Source of the DNA: Modestobacter lapidis
GTDB lineage: Bacteria; Actinomycetota; Actinomycetes; Mycobacteriales; Geodermatophilaceae
Length of the DNA stretch: 64,000 nucleotides
Direction of reading: 5' to 3'
Assembly: GCA_019779905.1 (NCBI GenBank)
Contig: JABAKE010000005.1
Coordinates: 1-64,000, forward strand
Part shown: one piece after another, positions 256-48,762 of the stretch
How positions within the stretch are numbered: position 1 is the stretch's first letter
Layout of the letters: each line of letters starts with the position of its first letter
Notes under the pieces: generated by a model
Told to the model about the DNA's origin: nothing
The model's database searches: none
What the model saw: the letters and a program-made list of their open reading frames with translations, nothing else
Made by a program: the position numbers and the translations under genes

Positions 256-1671
256 TCACCCCGCCGTGACGTCGGTTCGCCCGGCCGTGTCGGTGGCCGC
301 GGCGGGAAGCCGCACCCGGAGCACCGTCTCGCCCGATCCGGTTTCGATGCTGATGTCGCCGCGGTGCCGGTCGACGATGCGCCGGGAGATGTCCAGACCC
401 AGGCCGGTGCCCTCGCCCACGCCCTTGGTCGTGTAGAAGGGGTCGAAGGCGTGTTCCCTGGTCTCCGGGGACATCCCCGGCCCGGTGTCGGCGATCTCCA
501 CGATCACCGAGCCCCTGCCGAGGCGTGTCGACACGCGCAGCGTCCCGCGGCCGTCCATCGCGTCGAGTGCGTTGGTGATGAGGTTGGTCCAGACCTGGTT
601 GAGCTCCGCGGCGAGGGCCTGGATGCGGGGCACGTCGGCGCCGTGGTCCCGCACCACGGTGACGCCCTTCGGGATCCGGTGCGCCAGCATGACCAGGGTG
701 CTCTCGAGACCTTCCGCCAGGTCGGTGGTCTGCATGGAGGCCCGGTCGAGTTGTGAGTAGGACTTCACCGCCGCGACCAGGTCGGAGATGCGCCGGGTGG
801 ATTCCTTGACCTCGTCCAGCAGGCCGGTCGCCGACAGCGTGTTCGCGACCCAGTCGAGAGCCGCCTCGAGCGGAGCAGCACCCATCGCCGCGGCGACCCG
901 CTCGCACCAGTCGACATCGGCTCCCGCCCCGGCCAGGACCGGAGCGAGCACCCAGTCCCGCGCCACGGCCTTGTCGGACAGCCAGTCCGACAGGGCATCC
1001 TCCCGATCCGCGAGACCCATGGAATCCATGATCGGGGCCCGGGGTCCCAGCTCACGGCGCAAGGTGTCGATCCGGCTGAACTGGTCGGCGCTGATCGGCA
1101 CCGCGGCGAGGCGCTGGAGTGAGGACAGCATCCCCTCGTGCGCGTCGCCGAGGGCGTCGACCGCCCGCGTCGCCGCGGCGGCGGGGTTGTTGAGCTCGTG
1201 GGCCAGCCCGGCCGCCAGGGTGCCGAGGGCGGCGAGCGCCTCCCGCTGTCGGGCCATCGACTCGTAGTTGCGAGCGGACCGTGAGACGCCCTCGATGAGG
1301 TAGAGGCCGAGCGGGAACCGGGCCGCCCACAGCCGTCGCAGGTCCTCGGCGGCCACCCGGAGGATGCGGCCGGCCGTCGCGGCCCGACCGGTCGCGAGGT
1401 AGGCCCCGTGCTCGTCCCACGCGCGGAACCCGCCGGCCCACCGTCCCGGCACGTCCATGACCCCGAGCTGCGTCTCGTCGCGTCCCACATGCCGCAGGAG
1501 GTCGATGCGCCCGTCGAGGAGAACCCACCAGAACCCGGCGCGATGGTTCTCCTGGAACAGGACGTCACCGCACTCGAAGGGCACCTCGGTGCCGGCTTCG
1601 ATCAGGGCCAGCAGTTGGTCGTCGCCGGTGCCGTCGAAGAGCCCGATCCGGCGCAGGTCGTGGAGTTCCAT
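256..1671 (-). CDS. Sensor histidine kinase with N-terminal cNMP-binding-like domain
   Basis: A 471-residue cytosolic kinase with no membrane segments. Residues about 10-115 resemble a CAP_ED/cyclic-nucleotide-binding beta-roll, but the phosphate-binding cassette is poor (GRAATAGR without the usual GE), so it may not bind a nucleotide. A HisKA-like segment with LAHELNNP places the phospho-acceptor at His158. The HATPase domain has an N box (NQVWTNLITNALDAM, about 358-372), a G1 box DTGPGM (395) and GTGLGL (422). The ATG at 1671 shares its A with the TGA of the upstream REC/TrxR gene, so the two are translationally coupled and probably form a signalling pair. A longer upstream frame merely reads through the neighbour. 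Confidence 0.9.
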   Translation of the reverse strand: MELHDLRRIGLFDGTGDDQLLALIEAGTEVPFECGDVLFQENHRAGFWWVLLDGRIDLLRHVGRDETQLGVMDVPGRWAGGFRAWDEHGAYLATGRAATAGRILRVAAEDLRRLWAARFPLGLYLIEGVSRSARNYESMARQREALAALGTLAAGLAHELNNPAAAATRAVDALGDAHEGMLSSLQRLAAVPISADQFSRIDTLRRELGPRAPIMDSMGLADREDALSDWLSDKAVARDWVLAPVLAGAGADVDWCERVAAAMGAAPLEAALDWVANTLSATGLLDEVKESTRRISDLVAAVKSYSQLDRASMQTTDLAEGLESTLVMLAHRIPKGVTVVRDHGADVPRIQALAAELNQVWTNLITNALDAMDGRGTLRVSTRLGRGSVIVEIADTGPGMSPETREHAFDPFYTTKGVGEGTGLGLDISRRIVDRHRGDISIETGSGETVLRVRLPAAATDTAGRTDVTAG

Positions 1672-3323
1672 CACGTCATCGCCAGGTAGCGGTGGACGAG
1701 GTAGACCGACATGGCTCCCTCTCCTACGGCCGAGGCCACCCGTTTCATCGAGTCCAGCCGGACGTCTCCGGCAGCGAAGACCCCGGGGACACTGGTCTCC
1801 AGCGTGAACGGCGGCCGTGCCTCGGCCCATGCAGTGGGGGACAGGCCCAGCAGGTCCTGCCCGGTGAGGATGAACCCTTTGGCGTCCCGGGCCACCTCAC
1901 CGCCCAGCCAGTCGGTGCGTGGTGACGCGCCGATGAAGACGAACAGCCAGTTGACGGCGACGTGCTCGCCCGCGCCGGAGTCGCGGTCGGTGAGCGTGAC
2001 GGCCTCCAGGTGGCCGTCGCCGCGTGCGTCGGTCACCTCGCTGCGCAGCCGTACCTCGATGTTGGCGGTGGCCTGGATCCGCGCTACGAGGTAGAGGGAC
2101 ATGCCTTCCTCGAGCGATGACCCGCGCACCACCAGGACAACGCGCCCGGCGTACTGCGCGAGGTTCAGGGCGGCCTGACCGGCCGAGTTGGCCGCGCCGA
2201 CGATGAGCACGTCGTCGCCCTTGCACTGGACCGCGTCGCTGGCGTTCGCGCCGTAGTAGACGCCGCGTCCGGTGAGCTCGGCCAGTCCCGACGCCTCCAG
2301 GCGACGGTAGGAGACCCCGGTGGACACGACGATCGCGCGCGCCTCCAGCTCGCCGGTGTCGAAGCAGACCGCCCGGACCGGGCCGCGTCGCTGCAGCGAC
2401 ACCACGTCGCGAGCCAGCAGCATCTCGGCGCCGAAGCGGCCCGCCTGCGCGACGGCACGCTGGGTGAGATCGGCGCCGGACAGCCCCCTGGGGAATCCGA
2501 GGTAGTTCTCGATAGAGGCGCTCTGCGCCGCCTGTCCTCCGGGCGCCTCGCGCTCCACCACCACGGTGCGCAACCCCTCCGAGGCGGCATAGACGGCGGC
2601 GGCCAGTCCGGCCGGGCCGGCGCCGACGATGCAGAGGTCGTAGAGGGGCTGGAGGGCACGGGTGCGCAGGCCGAGCGCAGCGGCGAGATCGAGGGTCGAC
2701 GGCGACCGCAGCACCTCCTTGTCGGGGACGAAGACCAGCGGGAGCTCGTCGACCTCCGCCTCGGCCAGTGCCTGCAGCCGATGCCCCTCGGTGTCGCGGT
2801 CGACGTCGACCCACCGATAGGGAACGTAGTTGCGGGTGAGGAAGGTCTTGATCTCGTGGCTCCGGTCCGACCAGCGGTGCCCGACCACCCGCACGTCATC
2901 GGTCTCCCGCGGGTGCGCCCGCTGCCAGTCGGCGAGCAGATCGTCGATGACGGGGTAGAGCCGCTCGGCCGGCGGGTCCCACGGCTTGACCAGGTAGTAG
3001 TCCAGCCCGATGTCGTTGATCGCCTTGATGGCGACGTCCGTGTCGGCGTAGGCGGTCAACAGCAGGAGCTTGGCCTCCGGGGCGTGGCGGCGGGCCTGCT
3101 CGAGCATCTCGGTCCCGGTCATCCCGGGCATCCGCTGGTCGGTCGCGATCAGCGCGACCGGGCGCAGCCGCAGGGCCAGCTCTTCCAGCGCGGCGAGGGC
3201 TTCGGCGCCGGACGACGCGCGGACGATCCGGTAGTCCGATCCGTACCGGGCCCGGAGGTCGCGGGTGATCGCCCGCAGCACCATCGGGTCGTCGTCCACG
3301 GTCACGATGGTCGCCTTGCTCAT
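1671..3323 (-). CDS. Response regulator receiver fused to thioredoxin-reductase-like FAD oxidoreductase
   Basis: A 550-residue fusion. Residues 1-135 are a receiver domain with acidic pocket (VDDD), phospho-acceptor Asp62 in ATDQRMPG and Lys113 in LVKPW. Residues about 140-222 resemble a glutaredoxin/thioredoxin-like spacer. Residues 228-550 are a class II pyridine nucleotide-disulphide oxidoreductase fold with the FAD loop GAGPAG (234), ENYLGFP, an NAD(P) loop GAANSAG (376) and a C-terminal GVFAAGDVR motif. The CxxC redox pair expected after GRGVYYGA is absent (NASDAVQC instead), so it is not an ordinary thioredoxin reductase. The start is set by AGGAGGT nine bases before the ATG. Flavin chemistry is probably controlled by phosphorylation from the coupled downstream kinase (inference). 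Confidence 0.9.
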   Translation of the reverse strand: MSKATIVTVDDDPMVLRAITRDLRARYGSDYRIVRASSGAEALAALEELALRLRPVALIATDQRMPGMTGTEMLEQARRHAPEAKLLLLTAYADTDVAIKAINDIGLDYYLVKPWDPPAERLYPVIDDLLADWQRAHPRETDDVRVVGHRWSDRSHEIKTFLTRNYVPYRWVDVDRDTEGHRLQALAEAEVDELPLVFVPDKEVLRSPSTLDLAAALGLRTRALQPLYDLCIVGAGPAGLAAAVYAASEGLRTVVVEREAPGGQAAQSASIENYLGFPRGLSGADLTQRAVAQAGRFGAEMLLARDVVSLQRRGPVRAVCFDTGELEARAIVVSTGVSYRRLEASGLAELTGRGVYYGANASDAVQCKGDDVLIVGAANSAGQAALNLAQYAGRVVLVVRGSSLEEGMSLYLVARIQATANIEVRLRSEVTDARGDGHLEAVTLTDRDSGAGEHVAVNWLFVFIGASPRTDWLGGEVARDAKGFILTGQDLLGLSPTAWAEARPPFTLETSVPGVFAAGDVRLDSMKRVASAVGEGAMSVYLVHRYLAMT

Positions 3324-3624
3324 GGGGCGGTACCTCCTGGCGGGCGCATGCACTGCAGGGTCAGTGCCGAGGCTCGTCCGCCGAGCCGTCGGTAGGCGCT
3401 ACCCGACGACCTGCTCGATCGCCCGCGCTGGCCGGCGTCATCGCTCTCCGGTAGGAGCCGAGGGATGGTGCCGCCATCCAAGCACGGACAGGACCGCCGG
3501 ATGGGTGCTCAGCGCACCCGGATTCCCTGCACCGACCGGCTGCCCGGGACCCGGGGCGGCGATCTCCCGGCGTGGTTCTACGGGCGGACCCGGAAGACGA
3601 CGCGGGCGCACCGCCCCGACTCGA
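3324..3624. other. Intergenic, no gene seen
   Basis: About 300 bases upstream of the REC/TrxR operon and downstream of the NTF2-like gene. It should hold the promoter of the REC/TrxR-kinase operon, but no convincing -35/-10 pair stands out. The open frames crossing it have no family resemblance. Confidence 0.5.
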
Positions 3625-41376: not shown

Positions 41377-43062
41377 TCAGTGCGAATCTCGTCGGCCCTC
41401 GGGGTCGGCTCGCGGTGGGTCCGCGTGCCGCTGCCGGTCGTCCGAGAGGTAGCCAGTGACGACTTGCTCGGCGGTGGAGGAGGTCGCGGAGAAGCCGGTG
41501 ATCGCCGACACGAACTGGTCCCCGCTGAGGGTGGCGAGTTCGGTGTCCTCGACGGCACGGACGGTTGCCGTCCGCGGGACCGCACGAAGCAGCGCGATCT
41601 CGCCGAAGGCGTCGCCGGGGCCCAGCCGGCGGATCTCGTGCCCGTCGTCGATCACGGCCACGCGTCCGGATTCGACGACGAAGAACCCGTCGGCCGGATC
41701 ACCCTTCCGGAACACATCGCGCTGCGCCGGCACACGCAACCTGCCCAGGCGCAGCGCCAGGCCCTCGATGGCCGGGACGGGCAGCAGGCGGAACATGCCG
41801 ACCCGGCGCAGTAGCACGATCCGGTCGCGCCGCACGCCGATGTCCGCGTCGATCGCCCGCAGCGCCGCCCAGCGAGCGGTGACCGCCACCGGCAGGCTGC
41901 CGCCGGTGGCGATGAGGGTGCCTGTGTCGCCCAGCGTGGAGAGGACGAGCGGGATCGCCAGCGAGCCCAGTGCCAGCGCCAGCGAGAACACCGCCTCGGT
42001 CAGGGCGAGCACACGCGCCAGCGTCTGGTCGGGGACGAGTCGCTGCAGCAGCGTGAACCCGCTGACGTCGACGAGCGCGTTGGCGGCGCCGATGACGACG
42101 AACGCGCCGACCGCCACGGGACTGCCCGTCAGCAAGCCGATGAGGACGATCGGCACGCCCCACATCGCGATCCCGGCACCGAACAACGTGCCGAGTCGGG
42201 CGCTGCCCGCCGCGCCGATCGAGGCCATGGCCGCGACGAAGCCGCCGACCCCGAACGCCGCCCAGAGGACCCCGACCCCCGGGCGACCCAGGTCGGTGAC
42301 CTCCACGGCGACCACCACCACCAGCACGGTCAGCGCGCCGCGGACCAGGCACTGCGCGCCGCCCAGGACGATCACGTCCAGCGCCCGTGGGCGTCGTCGC
42401 AGTTCGCGCAGCCCCTCGACCACGTCGGAGACCGCCCCCACCCGGTCGGCCGGCCTGTCGGCTGCGGCAGGGCGCGGCGATTCGTAGCGCAGTCGGGCAG
42501 CCAGCGCGCCGGCAGCACCGGAGAGCAGGGCGACCGCGGCGAACGCGGCTGCCGCGTCGTACCCCGCGAGCAGCGCGGCCGCGGCCAGGGGACCGATGAG
42601 CGCGGCCGCACCGTCGAGGATGGCCCGGACCGCGTTCACCGCGGTGAGCTCCTCCGGCCTGGTGCACAGCGTGGGGAACAGGGCCGCGAGCACCGGCCGG
42701 TAGGCGGCATGGCAGACCGTCGAGAGCGTCAGCAACGCATACACCACCGCCGGCTGATCGACGGCCACCGCGGCCCCCGCCGCGGTGACCGCTCGGAGCG
42801 CGCACGCGATCACGAGCAGCTGCCGGCGCGAGACCCGGTCGGCCAGCGCGCCCAACCAGGGGAGCGCGAGCGTCGCCGGCAGCACCCGGAGGAACCCGAC
42901 CAGGCCCACGCCCGCCGCGCCGCCCTGGTCGAACGCGTACACCGTCATCGCGGACAGGAACAGGAACTCGCCGGTCCAGGCCGACAGCGACGACACCTGC
43001 GCGAGCCGGAGGTTGCGATTGCGCGCCACCGATGCCCACGCCTCGCGGTAGGACCCCGGCAC
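41377..43062 (-). CDS. MFS transporter with C-terminal cyclic-nucleotide-binding domain
   Basis: 561 residues from a GTG at 43062; the longer frame upstream crosses the divergent promoter. Residues about 15-410 form an MFS domain of 10-12 helices with the loop-2 motif GALADRVSRRQ. Residues about 430-535 are a CAP_ED beta-roll with RKGDPADGFFVVESGRVAVI and a phosphate-binding cassette FGEIALLRAVPRTATVRA, which keeps the Glu and Arg used for cNMP binding. Export or import would thus be gated by cAMP or cGMP (inference). The gene is divergent from a deacetylase that also carries a cNMP domain. Confidence 0.88.
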   Translation of the reverse strand: MPGSYREAWASVARNRNLRLAQVSSLSAWTGEFLFLSAMTVYAFDQGGAAGVGLVGFLRVLPATLALPWLGALADRVSRRQLLVIACALRAVTAAGAAVAVDQPAVVYALLTLSTVCHAAYRPVLAALFPTLCTRPEELTAVNAVRAILDGAAALIGPLAAAALLAGYDAAAAFAAVALLSGAAGALAARLRYESPRPAAADRPADRVGAVSDVVEGLRELRRRPRALDVIVLGGAQCLVRGALTVLVVVVAVEVTDLGRPGVGVLWAAFGVGGFVAAMASIGAAGSARLGTLFGAGIAMWGVPIVLIGLLTGSPVAVGAFVVIGAANALVDVSGFTLLQRLVPDQTLARVLALTEAVFSLALALGSLAIPLVLSTLGDTGTLIATGGSLPVAVTARWAALRAIDADIGVRRDRIVLLRRVGMFRLLPVPAIEGLALRLGRLRVPAQRDVFRKGDPADGFFVVESGRVAVIDDGHEIRRLGPGDAFGEIALLRAVPRTATVRAVEDTELATLSGDQFVSAITGFSATSSTAEQVVTGYLSDDRQRHADPPRADPEGRRDSH

Positions 43063-43256
43063 GGCGCGGACGCTAACAGGGAAGTCGCTACGGGTACGTC
43101 GAGTCGGACGTGGCCTCTGCGGTCGGTGTGCGCGACGGAAATGCTGGCTCGCGCGCTCCGCGGGACGGTACGGTGCGCGCTCGACCGGCCGGCCGGCCCA
43201 CAGGTCCATCCTCAGGTGCCGGCGGCAGCCTCGACGGTGATCGGTGGGCGTACGAC
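43063..43256. promoter_or_regulatory. Divergent promoter between the two cNMP-domain genes
   Basis: On the minus strand TAGCGT (43075-43070) lies seven bases before the GTG of the transporter gene, giving a probable leaderless transcript. The same box precedes the SEC-C gene at 49878. No clear operator palindrome was seen for the deacetylase side, and no CRP consensus (TGTGA-N6-TCACA) is present. Confidence 0.45.
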
Positions 43257-44426
43257 ATGTCTGTGGATCCCGCCGGTCGGAGGGCTCGGCGTCTGTTGGG
43301 GATCTTCGCCCATCCCGACGACGAGACCATCTGCGCCGGCGGCACGCTCGCCAAGTTCGCGGGCTCCGGCGCCGACGTCGGGGTCGTCTCGCTCACCCGC
43401 GGTGGAGCGGGCCAGATCAGGGACGCCGGCGTCGCCACCCGGGCCACCCTGCGGGGGGTGCGGGAGCGGGAACTCGAGGCGGCCGGCAAGGAGCTCGGGC
43501 TCAGCCTGACGAGGTGTCTCGACCACCCGGACGGCGGCCTCTCCGGGGTCGACGGTGCGACCCTGCTCGAGCAGGTGTCGGCGCTCATCACCGAGTTCGA
43601 GCCCGACGTGGTGATCACGTTCGGGCCCGACGGGTTCTCCGGTCACCCCGACCACGTGGCCGTGGGAGCCGCGGTGACCGAGGCCTGCTACCGGCTGCGG
43701 TCGGCCACGTCGCCCCGGCTCTTCCACTGTCACCTGCCGCGCAGTGGGATGCTGCTGCGCGACCGGCTGGCCGCGTGGGTGGTGGAGCTGACGACCCGCT
43801 TCAAGGGGACCAGGGAGTTCGTCCGCGCCCTGTCGGTCTTCTCGCGCGAGACGGCGGCGCTGGGATACGCGGCCGACTTCGTGAACGTCGAGTGGTTCCC
43901 GGCCGGCTCCTACCTCATCGAGCAGGGTGAGGAGGCCACGATGATGCACTTCCTCCTGTCCGGTTCCGTGGAGATCCGACGAGAGGGTGCGGACGGTCGC
44001 GTGCGGGTCGTCGACCGGTCGGGTCCGGGTGAGTTCATCGGGGAGGAAGGCATCGCCACAGGCCGGCCGCGCAACGCGCACGTGGTGGCCCTCGACGACG
44101 TCACGAGCCTGACGTTCCTGGCGTCCGACCGCTTCGTCGCCGACGTGCACGGGGGCCAGGCGCTCCCGATGCTGACGCGGACGCTGCCCTCGGGGGATCG
44201 GGTCGACGCCAGGGTGAGCACGTGCATCGACGTCTCGGATTTCGTCGGCCACAAGATCCGGGCGACTGCTGCACATCGCTCCCAGTACCCGATCGATCCG
44301 ACGATGTTTCCGGACTCGATCCTCCGGGAGATGTTCGGCGTGGAGTACTTCATCCAGGTCCTGCCCGAGCGGGAGCTGGAGCCGTCGCTGTTCGACGACG
44401 ACGCCTCAGCCGGCGGAGGCGAGTGA
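43257..44426 (+). CDS. PIG-L/LmbE-family deacetylase with an inserted cyclic-nucleotide-binding domain
   Basis: 389 residues from ATG 43257. Residues 13-210 are the N-terminal part of a PIG-L deacetylase: zinc motif AHPDDE (18-23), ARG loop LTRGGAGQIRD and the second zinc motif GHPDHV (129-134). Residues about 212-295 are a CAP_ED domain (SYLIEQGEEATMMHFLLSG; cassette IGEEGIATGRPRNAHV). Residues about 323-370 resume the PIG-L fold, with DVSDFVGHKIRATAAHRSQY and FGVEYFIQV. PIG-L enzymes remove N-acetyl groups from GlcNAc-type substrates such as mycothiol precursors. The insertion suggests allosteric control by cNMP. Confidence 0.88.
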   Translation: MSVDPAGRRARRLLGIFAHPDDETICAGGTLAKFAGSGADVGVVSLTRGGAGQIRDAGVATRATLRGVRERELEAAGKELGLSLTRCLDHPDGGLSGVDGATLLEQVSALITEFEPDVVITFGPDGFSGHPDHVAVGAAVTEACYRLRSATSPRLFHCHLPRSGMLLRDRLAAWVVELTTRFKGTREFVRALSVFSRETAALGYAADFVNVEWFPAGSYLIEQGEEATMMHFLLSGSVEIRREGADGRVRVVDRSGPGEFIGEEGIATGRPRNAHVVALDDVTSLTFLASDRFVADVHGGQALPMLTRTLPSGDRVDARVSTCIDVSDFVGHKIRATAAHRSQYPIDPTMFPDSILREMFGVEYFIQVLPERELEPSLFDDDASAGGGE

Positions 44427-45125
44427 CCGTGGGCGTCGGCGGGGGAGGATGTGCGGGAGGCCCCGGCCGACCATGTCGAAGGTGGCGCCGATGCGCAGGA
44501 GCAACGAGGGCTCCGGCGCGGGTGCGAGCGTCGCGGTGATGTCCTGGACGTCGACGTAGAAGGTCTGCACCCGTCCGATGCCCTCGAGGTCCTGCGCGAT
44601 CTCGTGGGCCGTCAGTCCGGCGGAGGTGGCGCCACCGTCGCGGAAGAGGTCGTCGGTGACCAGGAGGTACTCCGGCACCGTCACGGGGTTCTTGAGCAGG
44701 CGGTGGACGTAGATCACGTCCATACCGACGAGCTTCTTCCGGCGCCTGATCGTCTGGGTCGCGACGTCCCCGACGTGCGCCACGAACTTGAGCTTCAGGG
44801 CGCCGGTCTGCGTGCAGCTTCCGCAGGGACACATGTTGAGCTCGATCAGCCGGCGCTGCGCATGGAAGGCGCGGTGCATGGCGACGGCCGCACGGGTGGC
44901 GGCGGACAGCGTCGCGGCGCCGTCCAGCCCGTCGGTGTCGCACGAGAGGAAGGCCGCGTCGCCCTCGATCTCGATCAGCTCGAAGTCCCGTGCGGCGTCG
45001 ACGATCTTGTCGAGCAGGCGTCTCGTGGCCGCCTCCGCGTGCCCCAGCATGCTGCGGTGGAACTGCATGTACTCCGTGTAGCCGCCGATGTCGGCGATCA
45101 GCAGCAACGCACGCCGGGTGGCCAT
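44406..45125 (-). CDS. Class III nucleotidyl cyclase-like protein, DUF2652 type
   Basis: 239 residues. Both metal-binding aspartates of class III cyclases are in place: Asp12 in LIADIGGYTEYM and Asp56 in IEIEGDAAFL. A later block LKFVAHVGDV...GMDVIYVHRLLKN parallels the cyclase core, with a Cys-rich CPCGSC insertion before it. Canonical purine-selecting Lys/Asp and the transition-state Arg cannot be identified, so activity is uncertain. The 3' end overlaps the deacetylase gene by 21 bases on the opposite strand, and two cNMP-binding proteins are adjacent. Confidence 0.78.
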   Translation of the reverse strand: MATRRALLLIADIGGYTEYMQFHRSMLGHAEAATRRLLDKIVDAARDFELIEIEGDAAFLSCDTDGLDGAATLSAATRAAVAMHRAFHAQRRLIELNMCPCGSCTQTGALKLKFVAHVGDVATQTIRRRKKLVGMDVIYVHRLLKNPVTVPEYLLVTDDLFRDGGATSAGLTAHEIAQDLEGIGRVQTFYVDVQDITATLAPAPEPSLLLRIGATFDMVGRGLPHILPRRRPRSLASAG

Positions 45126-45216
45126 GGGCGGGACAGTAGCGCCGGACGGCGGGCCATGGCGGTCATCGCGACGGGGTGCCGAACGTACCCGACCCGGACC
45201 GCGGCCCGACTCAGCG

Positions 45217-45489
45217 TCAGCCGTAGGCGTCGGCGCGGTGCGAGATCCGGACGACGCGGACCAGAACCTCGTCCCCGTGGATGGAGTAGATGACGCGGTA
45301 TTGACCGCGTCGAGCCGACCAGTAGCCCTCGAGCTGGAACCGCAGCGGCTTGCCGACGCGGCGTGGGTTCTCGGCCAGCGGGCCGTAGAGGAAGTCGACG
45401 ACCGCCACTGCCACCGATTCCGGGAGGTCCTGTCCGATCGCTCGCTGGGCGCCGGCGGACAGAACGACGGTGTACCTCCCGTCGCTCAT
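45217..45489 (-). CDS. RelE/ParE-type toxin
   Basis: 90 residues. RYTVVLSAGAQRAIGQDLPESV, then GPLAENPRRVGKPLRFQLEGYWSARRGQYRVIYSI and VLVRVVRISHRADAY are the complete RelE superfamily pattern, with the catalytic-face Arg/Tyr/His residues towards the C-terminus. It would cleave mRNA at the ribosome. Its ATG overlaps the antitoxin stop (ATGA), with the antitoxin upstream. Confidence 0.92.
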   Translation of the reverse strand: MSDGRYTVVLSAGAQRAIGQDLPESVAVAVVDFLYGPLAENPRRVGKPLRFQLEGYWSARRGQYRVIYSIHGDEVLVRVVRISHRADAYG

Positions 45490-45764
45490 GGGCGGCGGCG
45501 GTTGGCGAGCGCCGCCCGTACCTGCTCTTCGCTGTATGCCCGGCCCTGAGCCATCTGCTGTTCGGCCTCGCGAATCTCCGGGACTGCGTGGCGGTCCGAG
45601 AGGATCCCCAGCGTTTCCATCAGTGACTCGTAGTCATCGACGGCGAGGATGACGGCGACCGGACTGCCGTTCTTGGTCACAGTGACGCGTTCATGGGTAC
45701 CGGCGACGTCGTCGATCACCTGGCTGAAGCGAGCCTTGACCGCCGCGAGGGACAGCGTCGTCAT
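45486..45764 (-). CDS. Phd/YefM-type antitoxin
   Basis: 92 residues starting TTLSLAAVKARFSQVIDDV, the Phd/YefM DNA-binding fold, followed by VTVTKNGSPVAVILAVDDYESLMETLGIL and a Gln/Glu-rich toxin-binding tail. It precedes and overlaps the RelE toxin gene. Two inverted repeats near its start could be its own operator. Confidence 0.92.
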   Translation of the reverse strand: MTTLSLAAVKARFSQVIDDVAGTHERVTVTKNGSPVAVILAVDDYESLMETLGILSDRHAVPEIREAEQQMAQGRAYSEEQVRAALANRRRP

Positions 45765-45775
45765 GACTAGAATTG

Positions 45776-45789
45776 TGGTCACGAGACCA
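45776..45789. promoter_or_regulatory. Operator candidate of the RelE/Phd pair
   Basis: TGGTC-ACGA-GACCA is an inverted repeat 12 bases upstream of the antitoxin ATG in a locally AT-rich promoter; TGAC...GTCA arms also bracket 45764-45781. Autorepression by the antitoxin is the expected use. Confidence 0.45.
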
Positions 45790-45887
45790 GGTGCGGTCAA
45801 GCAGTTCCTCGACAGACTGGCGAACGACCCTGCGGGGGTCGAACCTCCCTGCGGAATTCGGTTGCGGCCCCTTCGCAGGATGGGGCC

Positions 45888-47033
45888 ATGGACGGCGACC
45901 GCATGCTGGTGAACTTCTTCTACGCCCAGCCCGTGGGGCACGCCGTCGAGGCGCTTCACTATGCCCACGGGCACGCGGTGGCGGTGCCGGGACGGGAGGT
46001 CTCGCTGGCGCTCAACGCGGCGACGGCAACCGAGCTGGCCGGCTTCTGCCCGTTCGTGTCGGCGACCTACGCCATCCAGCACCCGTTCCTCGAGCCGTGC
46101 CCCGACTCGGCGTCGCGGCTGCGGTCGGTGCCGCGCGACTGGGACTGGATCGTCGACGACACCCGGCGGTACCAGCCACTCCAGTACGAGCTCTTCCCCG
46201 GGATGCGGGACTACTACGCGGCCTCCGATACCCACCTGCGAGCCGGCGTGAGCCGGTCCGTGGTGGGCGCCGAACGCGCCGGGTACCGGCCGCACCAGCC
46301 GCTGCGGCTCGAGCTGCCGGCCACAGCCCGTCGCGCCGCCGTCGACCGGCTGAGCAGCGACCATGCCCCCGCCGCGCGGATCGCGGTGATGCCCGCAGGC
46401 TCCAGCGACGCGTCCCGCTACCCGTCCGCCGGCTCGTGGTCGCAGATCCTCGATGCCCTGGCAGACGCCTTCACCGGTGTACAGGTGGTGCTCCTGGGCC
46501 GGACGGCGCAGGACGAGCGGACCAGCACGGCGCTGAGCGGTGACGACCTGGCCGAGCTCCGGCGCCACCGCTCGGGACCGGTCGACTGCTTCGACGTCCC
46601 GCTGGGGGAGCAGCTCGCCGTCGTCGAGGCCTGCGATGTCTTCCTCGCCCCGCACACCGGGTTCGGTCTGGCGGCGCTCGCCGTGGGCACCCCGTGGCTC
46701 TCGCTGTCTGGCGGCCGGTGGTTCGAGTACTACTTCAACCACGTGCCGTTCCGGTCCGTACTGCCCGATCCCGACCGCTACCCGAGCTTCAGCCAGTTCG
46801 ACCCGGCGCAGATCATCATCGACGGGGAGGAGGGGCCGCGGACACCGAGCATGACCCGCGCCCGCATCCGCGAGGACCTCGACCGCATCGTTGCCGCCGC
46901 GCAGGAGCTCGTGGCCGGGACCCTGCCCTACGAACGGGCGCTGAGCGAGTACTTCGCCGGGCTGAAGGCCGTTCACCGCGGTGACACGTCGGCGATCTGG
47001 TCGATCGACTCGGTGCACCTCGGCTACGTATGA
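45888..47033 (+). CDS. Glycosyltransferase family 9-like protein (GT-B fold)
   Basis: 381 residues. The C-terminal half has RIAVMPAGSSDASRYPSAGSWSQILDAL, VQVVLLGRTAQDER and CDVFLAPHTGFGLAALAVGTPWLSLSGG, the nucleotide-sugar binding elements of ADP-heptose-type GT-B transferases. The N-terminal half is less conserved (ALHYAHGHAVAVPGREV). Start ATG 45888 or 45903. It would transfer a sugar to a cell-surface or lipid acceptor; no partner genes are nearby, so the acceptor is unknown. Confidence 0.72.
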   Translation: MDGDRMLVNFFYAQPVGHAVEALHYAHGHAVAVPGREVSLALNAATATELAGFCPFVSATYAIQHPFLEPCPDSASRLRSVPRDWDWIVDDTRRYQPLQYELFPGMRDYYAASDTHLRAGVSRSVVGAERAGYRPHQPLRLELPATARRAAVDRLSSDHAPAARIAVMPAGSSDASRYPSAGSWSQILDALADAFTGVQVVLLGRTAQDERTSTALSGDDLAELRRHRSGPVDCFDVPLGEQLAVVEACDVFLAPHTGFGLAALAVGTPWLSLSGGRWFEYYFNHVPFRSVLPDPDRYPSFSQFDPAQIIIDGEEGPRTPSMTRARIREDLDRIVAAAQELVAGTLPYERALSEYFAGLKAVHRGDTSAIWSIDSVHLGYV

Positions 47034-47299
47034 CCGGCAGGCCGGCCGTCGGACGGGAGAGTCACTCATGGCAGCCAGGACGTGAGCCCAGTGGCGTGCA
47101 GCTGTCGCCGCGCGCTGGCCAGGGGAGCGCGCTCAGCCGCTTGGAGCCGGTCGGCCCGCCGTTCGAGGCGGGAGGGAAGCGGGACATCCGGGGCGGGCGC
47201 CAGGAGCGCCGCAGGTAGGCCGCCTCCATTCGATCGCCAGCCGAGTACACCGACACGAAGCCGCGCGGCCGCGTCGCGAGCACGATGGCGCGGGTGGCA
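47034..47299. other. Non-coding or heavily decayed stretch
   Basis: Between the glycosyltransferase and the recognisable primase remnant. A minus-strand frame (GATRAIVLATRPRGFVSVYS and beyond) is open through it but matches no family; it may be further decayed sequence of the remnant. Confidence 0.4.
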
Positions 47300-47710
47300 C
47301 CCCGCTCACCGGCGGTCGGGACAGGCACCGGCTCGGTGACACCACCGTCGACCCACGCTGTGACTACTTCCTCGGTCAGCGGCAGGTACTCCCGCTCCGC
47401 GGCCGGGATGCCCGTGCGCCAGCCGCCGCGCACCGCGGACACCCAGCCCGCGCGGGGAAGAGGCTGGCGTAGAAGGCGACCTGTGCGGACGCGGGGGAGC
47501 CGGGTGCGCCGGCCCCGGCTCGCCGTCGAAGACACCGGTCTGGACCGGACCGGGTGGGCGCGCCTGCTGCGGAGTCAACTCCAGCAGTCGCAGCAGCCGG
47601 GCGTTCTCCGCCTGCAGCCGGACAACCTCGTCGCTCAGCGCCGACAGTTCGTCGTCCAGGCCGACGAACGGCGAGGTGCGTTGATCCGCGGACCCGGACG
47701 AGATCGGCAC
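47300..47710 (-). pseudogene. Remnant of a TOTE conflict-system primase/helicase gene
   Basis: Three successive minus-strand frames together spell the N-terminus of an actinobacterial TOTE archaeo-eukaryotic primase protein: first RLQAENARLLRLLELTPQQA and VQTGVFDGEPGP, then, after loss of one base near 47508, GSPASAQVAFYASLFPAR, then, after a deletion of about 20 codons with another frame change near 47460, WVSAVRGGWRTGIPAAERE and YLPLTEEVV. The rest of the roughly 900-residue protein is missing. Full-length relatives belong to a retroelement/conflict system. The family assignment is from memory of the conserved wording, not a search. Confidence 0.6.
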
Positions 47711-48005
47711 GACTCCGTACTGGCGCGAGATCTACGTCGCAAGGCAGAGGTGCGAAGGCGGTATCCCGCAGAGGGGTCAGTGACCGGAGGCGATCGGCTC
47801 CTGGTTGCCGGCCACGGCGCGGTACTTCTGCCGGCCGGCTTTGCCGCTGGTCGCGACCGCCTCGTCGATGCAATCCCACGGGACGCCGGCCTTCCCGGCA
47901 GCGGCAGCGGCCTCACCGAGGTCGCCCAGGGCACACCGCAGAGCAGCGGCTCGCACCGCTGTCTCTTCCCTGGAGACGGACAGCCGGAGGCAGAACCGAC
48001 CACAA
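47711..48005. other. Region before the second PIN module, no gene supported
   Basis: About 295 bases without a convincing gene. A minus-strand frame encoding DLGEAAAAAGKAGVPWDCID looks protein-like but has no family match, RBS or homologous neighbour. Confidence 0.35.
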
Positions 48006-48024
48006 GATATCAAGACATGATATC
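48006..48024. promoter_or_regulatory. Operator/promoter of the second PIN toxin-antitoxin pair
   Basis: GATATCA-AGACA-TGATATC is a perfect 7-base inverted repeat in the most AT-rich spot of the region. It overlaps a TATCCT -10 box (48021-48026). The antitoxin starts at 48061, with GGAGG about ten bases upstream of it. Confidence 0.65.
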
Positions 48025-48060
48025 CTACTCAGTCGACAACTGCAGCGGAGGGGCAAGAGC

Positions 48061-48273
48061 ATGGCCAAGACACTGGTCGACATCCCTGAGGACAAGCTTG
48101 CCCGAGCGCAGGCGCGGCTCGGCACGGCTACGAAGCGGGAGACCGTTGAGCGTGCGCTGGATCTGGTGCTGCACCAGGCCGAGCAGCGCGACCTCATCAT
48201 GGCGGTGGCAGCGGGACAGGTTTCGCCGCACTTCACTCCGGAGGCACTGGCCGAGGTCAGGCCGGGTGCCTGA
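48061..48273 (+). CDS. VapB-type antitoxin (DUF2191-like)
   Basis: 70 residues. AKTLVDIPEDKLARAQARLGTATKRETVERALDLVL is the ribbon-helix-helix of VapB antitoxins, followed by an acidic/aromatic tail (VSPHFTPEALAEV). GGAGG lies ten bases before the ATG. The toxin gene starts eight bases before this gene ends. Confidence 0.88.
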   Translation: MAKTLVDIPEDKLARAQARLGTATKRETVERALDLVLHQAEQRDLIMAVAAGQVSPHFTPEALAEVRPGA

Positions 48274-48694
48274 GGCGATCCTCGACAACTCCGCGTATGC
48301 CCGCCTGGCTCGGCACGCCTCGGTCCGGGAGGCCGTCCTCGACTACCTGAACGGCCCACTCAACAGCCTCCGGTCAGTGCTGGTGCAGCGGTTGGAAATC
48401 TGCACCTCAGTGCGGAACGTGGCGGAGTTCGACGCCGAGATGCAGGCCCTTGCCGCGATGCCGCTGCTGGAGGACGCGCTTCCCGCTGTCGGCGCTGCGG
48501 CGCAGTCACTGCAGCGGGCGCTCGTGCAGCGCGGCACCCACCGTGGGCCGAAGGTGGTGGACTTGCTCATCGCTGCCACCGCACTCGTGCACGATGCGGA
48601 GATCCTCCACTACGACGGCGACTACGACCTGCTTGCTGCCGCCGAGCCGAGGCTGCGGACCCGGTGGATCGTGCCGCGGGGGAGCGTGGCGTAG
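48266..48694 (+). CDS. VapC-type PIN-domain toxin
   Basis: 142 residues from a GTG overlapping the antitoxin. The first acidic residue lies in EAILDNSAYARL, the Glu in LEICTSVRN, and the later acidic residues in PKVVDLLIAATA and HYDGDYDLLAAAEP, matching the PIN cluster. It ends TRWIVPRGSVA, a tail also seen in the third pair (HRWVMPRGTA). Expected activity is endoribonuclease on tRNA or rRNA. Confidence 0.88.
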   Translation: MPEAILDNSAYARLARHASVREAVLDYLNGPLNSLRSVLVQRLEICTSVRNVAEFDAEMQALAAMPLLEDALPAVGAAAQSLQRALVQRGTHRGPKVVDLLIAATALVHDAEILHYDGDYDLLAAAEPRLRTRWIVPRGSVA

Positions 48695-48762
48695 CTGCCG
48701 CGGGCAGCCCGCATGCATCCAGCCGATGGCACGGCTTCGATCGAAGAGGCACACCCACGTCG

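Follow-up and report, generated by a model that had tools for sequence, protein, structure and literature searches.

A stretch of 64,000 nucleotides from the Modestobacter lapidis draft genome (contig JABAKE010000005.1, positions 1 to 64,000; hereafter the window) carries three adjacent genes that probably form a signalling module dedicated to a cyclic nucleotide; it would combine a putative DUF2652 cyclase with effectors that carry cyclic nucleoside monophosphate (cNMP)-binding domains. The module is well supported, because DUF2652 genes are linked to genes for cNMP-binding proteins, the components co-occur in genomes, and some relatives of the transporter lie beside class III cyclases. In the proposed mechanism, the soluble DUF2652 protein would act as a divergent class III cyclase that converts a nucleoside triphosphate to a 3',5'-cyclic nucleotide, most likely cyclic GMP (cGMP) given its Glu/Lys base-recognition pair. 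This nucleotide would bind the C-terminal domain of the co-encoded major facilitator superfamily (MFS) transporter, probably an exporter, and gate or tune transport; in lineages that encode a PIG-L deacetylase it would also bind the inserted domain of this zinc enzyme and switch it. An earlier reading made without database searches (the sequence-only reading) had described three adjacent cNMP-themed genes here, and Pfam matches (MFS_1/cNMP, PIG-L/cNMP and DUF2652), all well above the cut-offs, bear this out. The features of the locus are as follows.

41377..43209, minus strand: MFS transporter with C-terminal cNMP-binding domain (Pfam MFS_1, E 8.5e-29; cNMP_binding, E 2e-20)
41503..41736, minus strand: cNMP-binding domain of the transporter, phosphate-binding cassette GEIALLRAVPRTATV, Glu and Arg retained
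43078..43256, no strand: divergent upstream DNA common to transporter and deacetylase, with starts inferred from ortholog conservation
43257..44426, plus strand: PIG-L-family zinc deacetylase (389 aa) with inserted cNMP-binding domain, AHPDDE (residues 18-23) and HPDH (130-133) intact
43890..44117, plus strand: cNMP-binding domain within the PIG-L fold, placed by Pfam and structural alignment
44406..45125, minus strand: DUF2652 protein (239 aa) with class III nucleotide cyclase fold (DUF2652, E 2.3e-39)
Key residues of the DUF2652 protein: D12 and D56, metal; E52/K131, base positions; R142, transition-state Arg; I138, replacing Asn
44814..44831, minus strand: CxCxxC motif of DUF2652 (C99, C101, C104), kept in every aligned family member
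44406..44426, no strand: tail-to-tail overlap of the deacetylase and DUF2652 genes, 21 bp

The open reading frame of the deacetylase extends over 43110-44426 on the plus strand (Pfam PIG-L, E 2.7e-32; cNMP_binding, E 2e-18). Ortholog conservation suggests that its translation starts at ATG 43257 and that the transporter likely starts near GTG 43077 and not at the upstream ATG 43209. The divergent arrangement with shared upstream DNA proposed earlier is thereby retained, with about 180 bp between the revised starts, as is the tail-to-tail overlap.

To define the linkage, 84,980 species genomes were scanned with a diverse DUF2652 alignment and the best 80 loci were kept; 46 of these, with at least 50% identity, were taken as the clade set and the other 34 as the comparison set. 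The clade spans about eight actinobacterial families, with members in Geodermatophilaceae, Nocardioidaceae, Kribbellaceae, Microbacteriaceae, Cellulomonadaceae, Propionibacteriaceae and Nocardiaceae and in metagenome-assembled genomes (MAGs) of Frankiales and Thermoleophilia. A cNMP-binding protein is encoded within 3.5 kb of the DUF2652 gene in 45 of the 46 clade loci (3.7 kb for the farthest secondary partner), and in the single exception (L132) the DUF2652 gene begins 149 bases from the locus edge. The partners are an MFS transporter with a cNMP domain (MFS-cNMP) in 42 loci, a PIG-L protein with such a domain (PIG-L-cNMP) in 14 and a small cNMP protein in about five. With a broad cNMP profile that also picks up the weakest domain of the window, no cNMP neighbour was detected at any of the 34 other loci (mycobacteria, myxobacteria, Thermoleophilia, Burkholderiales and others). 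The linked loci and L132 form one clade (support 100/98), so that a single gain of the linkage, followed by its retention in the different families, is probable. It is not strictly exclusive to this clade, since PF00027 proteins are listed near the K/E-type DUF2652 member of M. tuberculosis (Ramakrishnan et al., 2016; PMC4886424).

The distances of transporter and DUF2652 proteins co-vary (r 0.70), and within ±8 kb no other conserved partner was found, only genus-level synteny of Agromyces. The 4.78 Mb draft genome contains just five PF00027 domains, three of them in the window and two at the locus. At about eight cNMP genes per 5 Mb, one is expected less than 4 kb from a given gene in about 1% of cases; chance clustering was therefore rejected, given the linkage in 45 of 46 loci and the family-wide co-occurrence. 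Origin from a mobile element or phage was likewise rejected, as no phage record matched, only two distant plasmid matches (30% identity) were obtained, and there was no close relative among these records. The gene set suggests a small dedicated signalling circuit on the chromosomes of soil actinobacteria.

Co-occurrence was examined in 112 Geodermatophilaceae genomes, searched for DUF2652 (found in 21), MFS-cNMP (20) and PIG-L-cNMP (11). DUF2652 of the E52/K131 type and MFS-cNMP are present in an identical set of 20 genomes, and all 11 genomes with PIG-L-cNMP lie inside this set. The one DUF2652 genome outside this set (G037, an incomplete MAG) encodes a K/E-type protein and has no MFS-cNMP. 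The association persists without adjacency, as the deacetylase is encoded elsewhere in the genome in G026 and G525, and a diverged transporter elsewhere in G043 and G529. Hypergeometric p values are ~3e-21 and ~7e-10 with kinship ignored, which inflates the significance. Within the genus the distribution is patchy (7 of 23 genomes, M. lapidis included), which argues against simple inheritance. According to the sequence-only reading, a neighbourhood not conserved beyond this strain would refute its proposal. The proposal withstood this test, with strong linkage and co-occurrence in several families that persist when gene order has changed or the genes lie apart.

At least five gene arrangements were found. 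In the window type, the deacetylase gene is tail-to-tail with DUF2652 and the transporter gene is divergent. In the second, DUF2652 precedes the transporter gene and overlaps it or almost does so, and in the third the order is MFS-cNMP and then DUF2652, both on one strand and separated by a median of 46 nt. A fourth has deacetylase and DUF2652 genes in tandem and a divergent transporter gene, and a fifth consists of the deacetylase, a small separate cNMP-domain protein, a pyridoxal phosphate-dependent enzyme (PALP) and DUF2652. The latter order, with the PALP and small cNMP genes between PIG-L-cNMP and DUF2652, is seen in Geodermatophilus aquaeductus (L030:9150-10761; L111), and the small cNMP-binding protein recurs in Kribbella (L119, L123) and the Frankiales MAG (L147). 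The usual core is an MFS-cNMP/DUF2652 operon, to which the deacetylase is an optional addition (14 of 46 loci). That the same parts were repeatedly reassembled is good evidence of a functional link.

The cassette Glu and Arg, already pointed out for the CAP_ED domain of the transporter, are present in both window domains (GEIALL..PRTATV and GEEGIATGRPRNAHV), the deacetylase domain included, and they are retained in MFS cNMP domains wherever the correct domain was aligned. In the PIG-L fold (PF02585), the zinc motifs HPDD/HPDH (H19, D21, D22, H133) are invariant among 16 orthologs. A structural model of PIG-L-cNMP (predicted local distance difference test score, pLDDT, 70.5) aligned to MshB over residues 8-378 (Z 23.2) and to CRP/PKG domains over residues ~200-298 (Z about 12); the cNMP domain is thus an insertion in the PIG-L fold. 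Judged from this anatomy, gating of the effectors by their cNMP domains is plausible. Equivalog models of NCBIfam for MshB, Mca and BshB scored at most 102.9 bits against cut-offs of 182-277. Among NCBIfam models, the transporter comes closest to those of proton antiporters and exporters such as EntS and Mef(A), all below cut-off, so that export is conjectural.

Searches covering 394 genomes of the class yielded full-length PIG-L-cNMP in only two genomes, both of which also encode DUF2652. When the widespread form of MFS-cNMP was used as the query, three close orthologs (72-78% identity) were found, all beside DUF2652, together with distant relatives that lack it. Near four of the ~22 distant relatives (two in G722, one in G683 and one in G564) an ordinary class III cyclase is encoded on the same strand. 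Such pairs are present at L307 (5243-7402, 15278-16435), L315 and L317, two of them in one genome (G722). The pairing of related transporters with a true cyclase in other lineages makes a cyclase role of DUF2652 more likely. The presence of only one PF00211 cyclase in each family genome examined also counts in favour of the module.

The DUF2652 match itself (PF10851) scored 134.5 bits against a gathering threshold of 22.1. An AlphaFold (AF2) model (pLDDT 77.5; predicted template modelling score, pTM, 0.78) superimposed on CyaC (1wc1; Z 19.1, root-mean-square deviation 2.7 over 183 residues) and on the guanylyl cyclase Cya2 (Z 18.4); a search of the PDB with the DUF2652 sequence profile gave no match. 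When its profile is aligned with 28 class III cyclases of actinobacteria (E 1.2e-9), D12 and D56 coincide with the metal ligands, R142 with the transition-state Arg and I138 with the Asn position, and E52/K131 correspond to the base-recognition pair, which is Lys/Asp in adenylyl cyclases. The two metal-binding aspartates recognised in the sequence-only reading are thus in place, and together with R142 they are retained in essentially all 80 loci, in several phyla. We predict DUF2652 to be a divergent class III cyclase. Some DUF2652 proteins of other actinobacterial lineages (L060, L061, L066, L068, L069) have long C-terminal extensions, which in L068 and L069 resemble methyltransferase fusions, judged from sequence alone.

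The base-recognition pair gives a pointer to the messenger. Over the 80 loci this pair is E/K in 50, K/E in 27 and E/N, E/R and G/T in one each, and two like charges never occur. The complementary swap separates deep DUF2652 clades, and it is compatible with a salt bridge or with recognition that alternates between ATP-like and GTP-like modes, the latter being favoured in earlier work (PMC4886424). A Modestobacter marinus member was classed there as guanylyl-cyclase-like (D,D / E,K / H,R). In the guanylyl-cyclase pattern, Glu replaces the Lys, and the Asp gives way to Cys or a small residue; Glu52 is present, and the second position is Lys131, not Cys or Gly, which tempers the assignment. We lean weakly to GTP as substrate, and hence to cGMP, because Glu at position 52 is the guanylyl-cyclase residue and because PDB 5d0g is a complex of GTP with an adenylyl cyclase that carries three substitutions (KDA to EGY). 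For both cNMP domains, cGMP-dependent kinases are among the top sequence matches in the PDB, a suggestive pointer only. With E52/K131, cyclic AMP (cAMP) as the default messenger is less likely, though conceivable. It is tempting to speculate that the product of the swapped-base DUF2652 is cGMP, or else a cyclic nucleotide other than cAMP, and that it serves as a private messenger which directly gates the MFS exporter and PIG-L without a kinase or transcription factor; in this specific form the proposal is tentative, with the odds somewhat against it.

Several observations weigh against a cyclase module. The usual catalytic Asn is Ile138 here and Ile in nearly all 80 loci, which lowers the likelihood of class III membership but does not exclude it, since established cyclases can lack this Asn (PMC4886424). 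An invariant CxCxxC motif, absent from ordinary class III cyclases, hints at extra or different chemistry. Biochemical data for any DUF2652 protein were not found in the literature searched. In two PIG-L cNMP domains the Glu or Arg is replaced, by Gln in L114 and by Ser in L147; the others keep both. E/K-type DUF2652 proteins of Thermoleophilia have no cNMP neighbours. Moreover, most MFS-cNMP relatives outside the clade (31-58% identity) have no cyclase in the DNA examined, thus the fused domain can respond to a diffusible cNMP. DUF2652 might then be a non-catalytic, cyclase-derived protein that binds nucleotides or senses redox state or metals and directly regulates the cNMP-domain proteins, with the cNMP supplied by an ordinary class III cyclase elsewhere. 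Besides the Ile substitution and the missing activity reports, this explanation can draw on C99, C101, C104 and H117, which are retained in every aligned member from several phyla and possibly form a metal or redox site, and on the single PF00211 cyclase present in M. lapidis, as in each of the family genomes examined. We nevertheless consider it unlikely, as both metal aspartates and the transition-state Arg are kept, the base pair changes complementarily (E/K or K/E, never E/E or K/K) as if a substrate were read, and ordinary cyclases occupy the same slot beside related transporters. The CxCxxC motif and His117 are not mentioned in the text of PMC4886424.

The sequence-only reading had gone further and supposed a local signal, made by the cyclase-like protein, that tunes deacetylation and transport of one metabolite. 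Its first part agrees with the cyclase fold, metal aspartates, intact cNMP pockets and linkage described above. Control of one metabolite is rather improbable: the genes are adjacent and divergent in several family genomes, and PIG-L-cNMP is present in the family solely with DUF2652 and MFS-cNMP, but the deacetylase is missing from 32 of the 46 loci and sometimes encoded at another genomic site, a separate small cNMP protein is an alternative partner, and no biosynthetic neighbours common to different genera were found. Least probable is a Pycsar-like anti-phage system with an infection-triggered cyclase and cNMP-gated effectors, since despite a similar layout of cyclase and cNMP-domain effector, a patchy distribution (20 of 112 family genomes) and weak matches of the cNMP domains to Pycsar models, DUF2652 matched no PADLOC model (the PycC cyclase model included), the Pycsar matches are confined to the cNMP domain, an MFS transporter and a deacetylase stand in place of TIR or membrane-disrupting effectors, and close relatives on phage or plasmid records were not found.

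Elsewhere in the window (256-3353, minus strand), the third PF00027 match, about 40 kb from the locus, is a weak N-terminal cNMP-binding-like domain of a histidine kinase, which adjoins a fusion of a response regulator with a pyridine-nucleotide-disulphide oxidoreductase. Just downstream of DUF2652 (45200-48700), inspection by eye points to a likely RelBE-like and a likely VapBC-like toxin-antitoxin pair; a gene with weak similarity to glycosyltransferase 9 lies there too.

If the module operates as proposed, an orphan family for which cyclase function was predicted in 2016 would acquire its first concrete effectors, together with a function that can be tested, and the locus would illustrate how a second messenger directly controls a bacterial secondary transporter and a metabolic deacetylase. 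The E/K versus K/E swap between clades would provide a natural test of base specificity.

The M. tuberculosis proteins Rv3239c and Rv3728 are also MFS transporters fused to a cNMP-binding domain, and they additionally carry an esterase domain; here, the transporter is paired with a DUF2652 gene. The prediction of DUF2652 as a class III cyclase-like family is prior art (Ramakrishnan et al., 2016; PMC4886424). That study treats the same family, whereas the transporter and deacetylase partners, the co-occurrence, the clade linkage and assays are absent from it. Open-access literature on PIG-L/LmbE proteins with a cNMP domain, Rv2562 activity, and Geodermatophilaceae and cyclic GMP yielded nothing beyond it. 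What seems to be new, judged by this literature, is the module, together with where it occurs and its tie to a single DUF2652 clade. DUF2652 resembles class III cyclases (CyaC, Cya2; PF00211) in fold, the two metal aspartates and the transition-state Arg, and it has a Glu where adenylyl cyclases have Lys. It differs from CyaC and Cya2 in the replacement of Asn by Ile, in a Lys in place of the Asp/Cys base residue, in the extra invariant CxCxxC and in very low identity. The deacetylase shares the PIG-L fold and zinc motifs with MshB, BshB and LnmX, but has a cNMP domain of ~100 residues between its core and C-terminal part. In Pycsar as in this locus, a cyclase gene lies beside a cNMP effector gene, whereas the cyclase family and the effectors differ.

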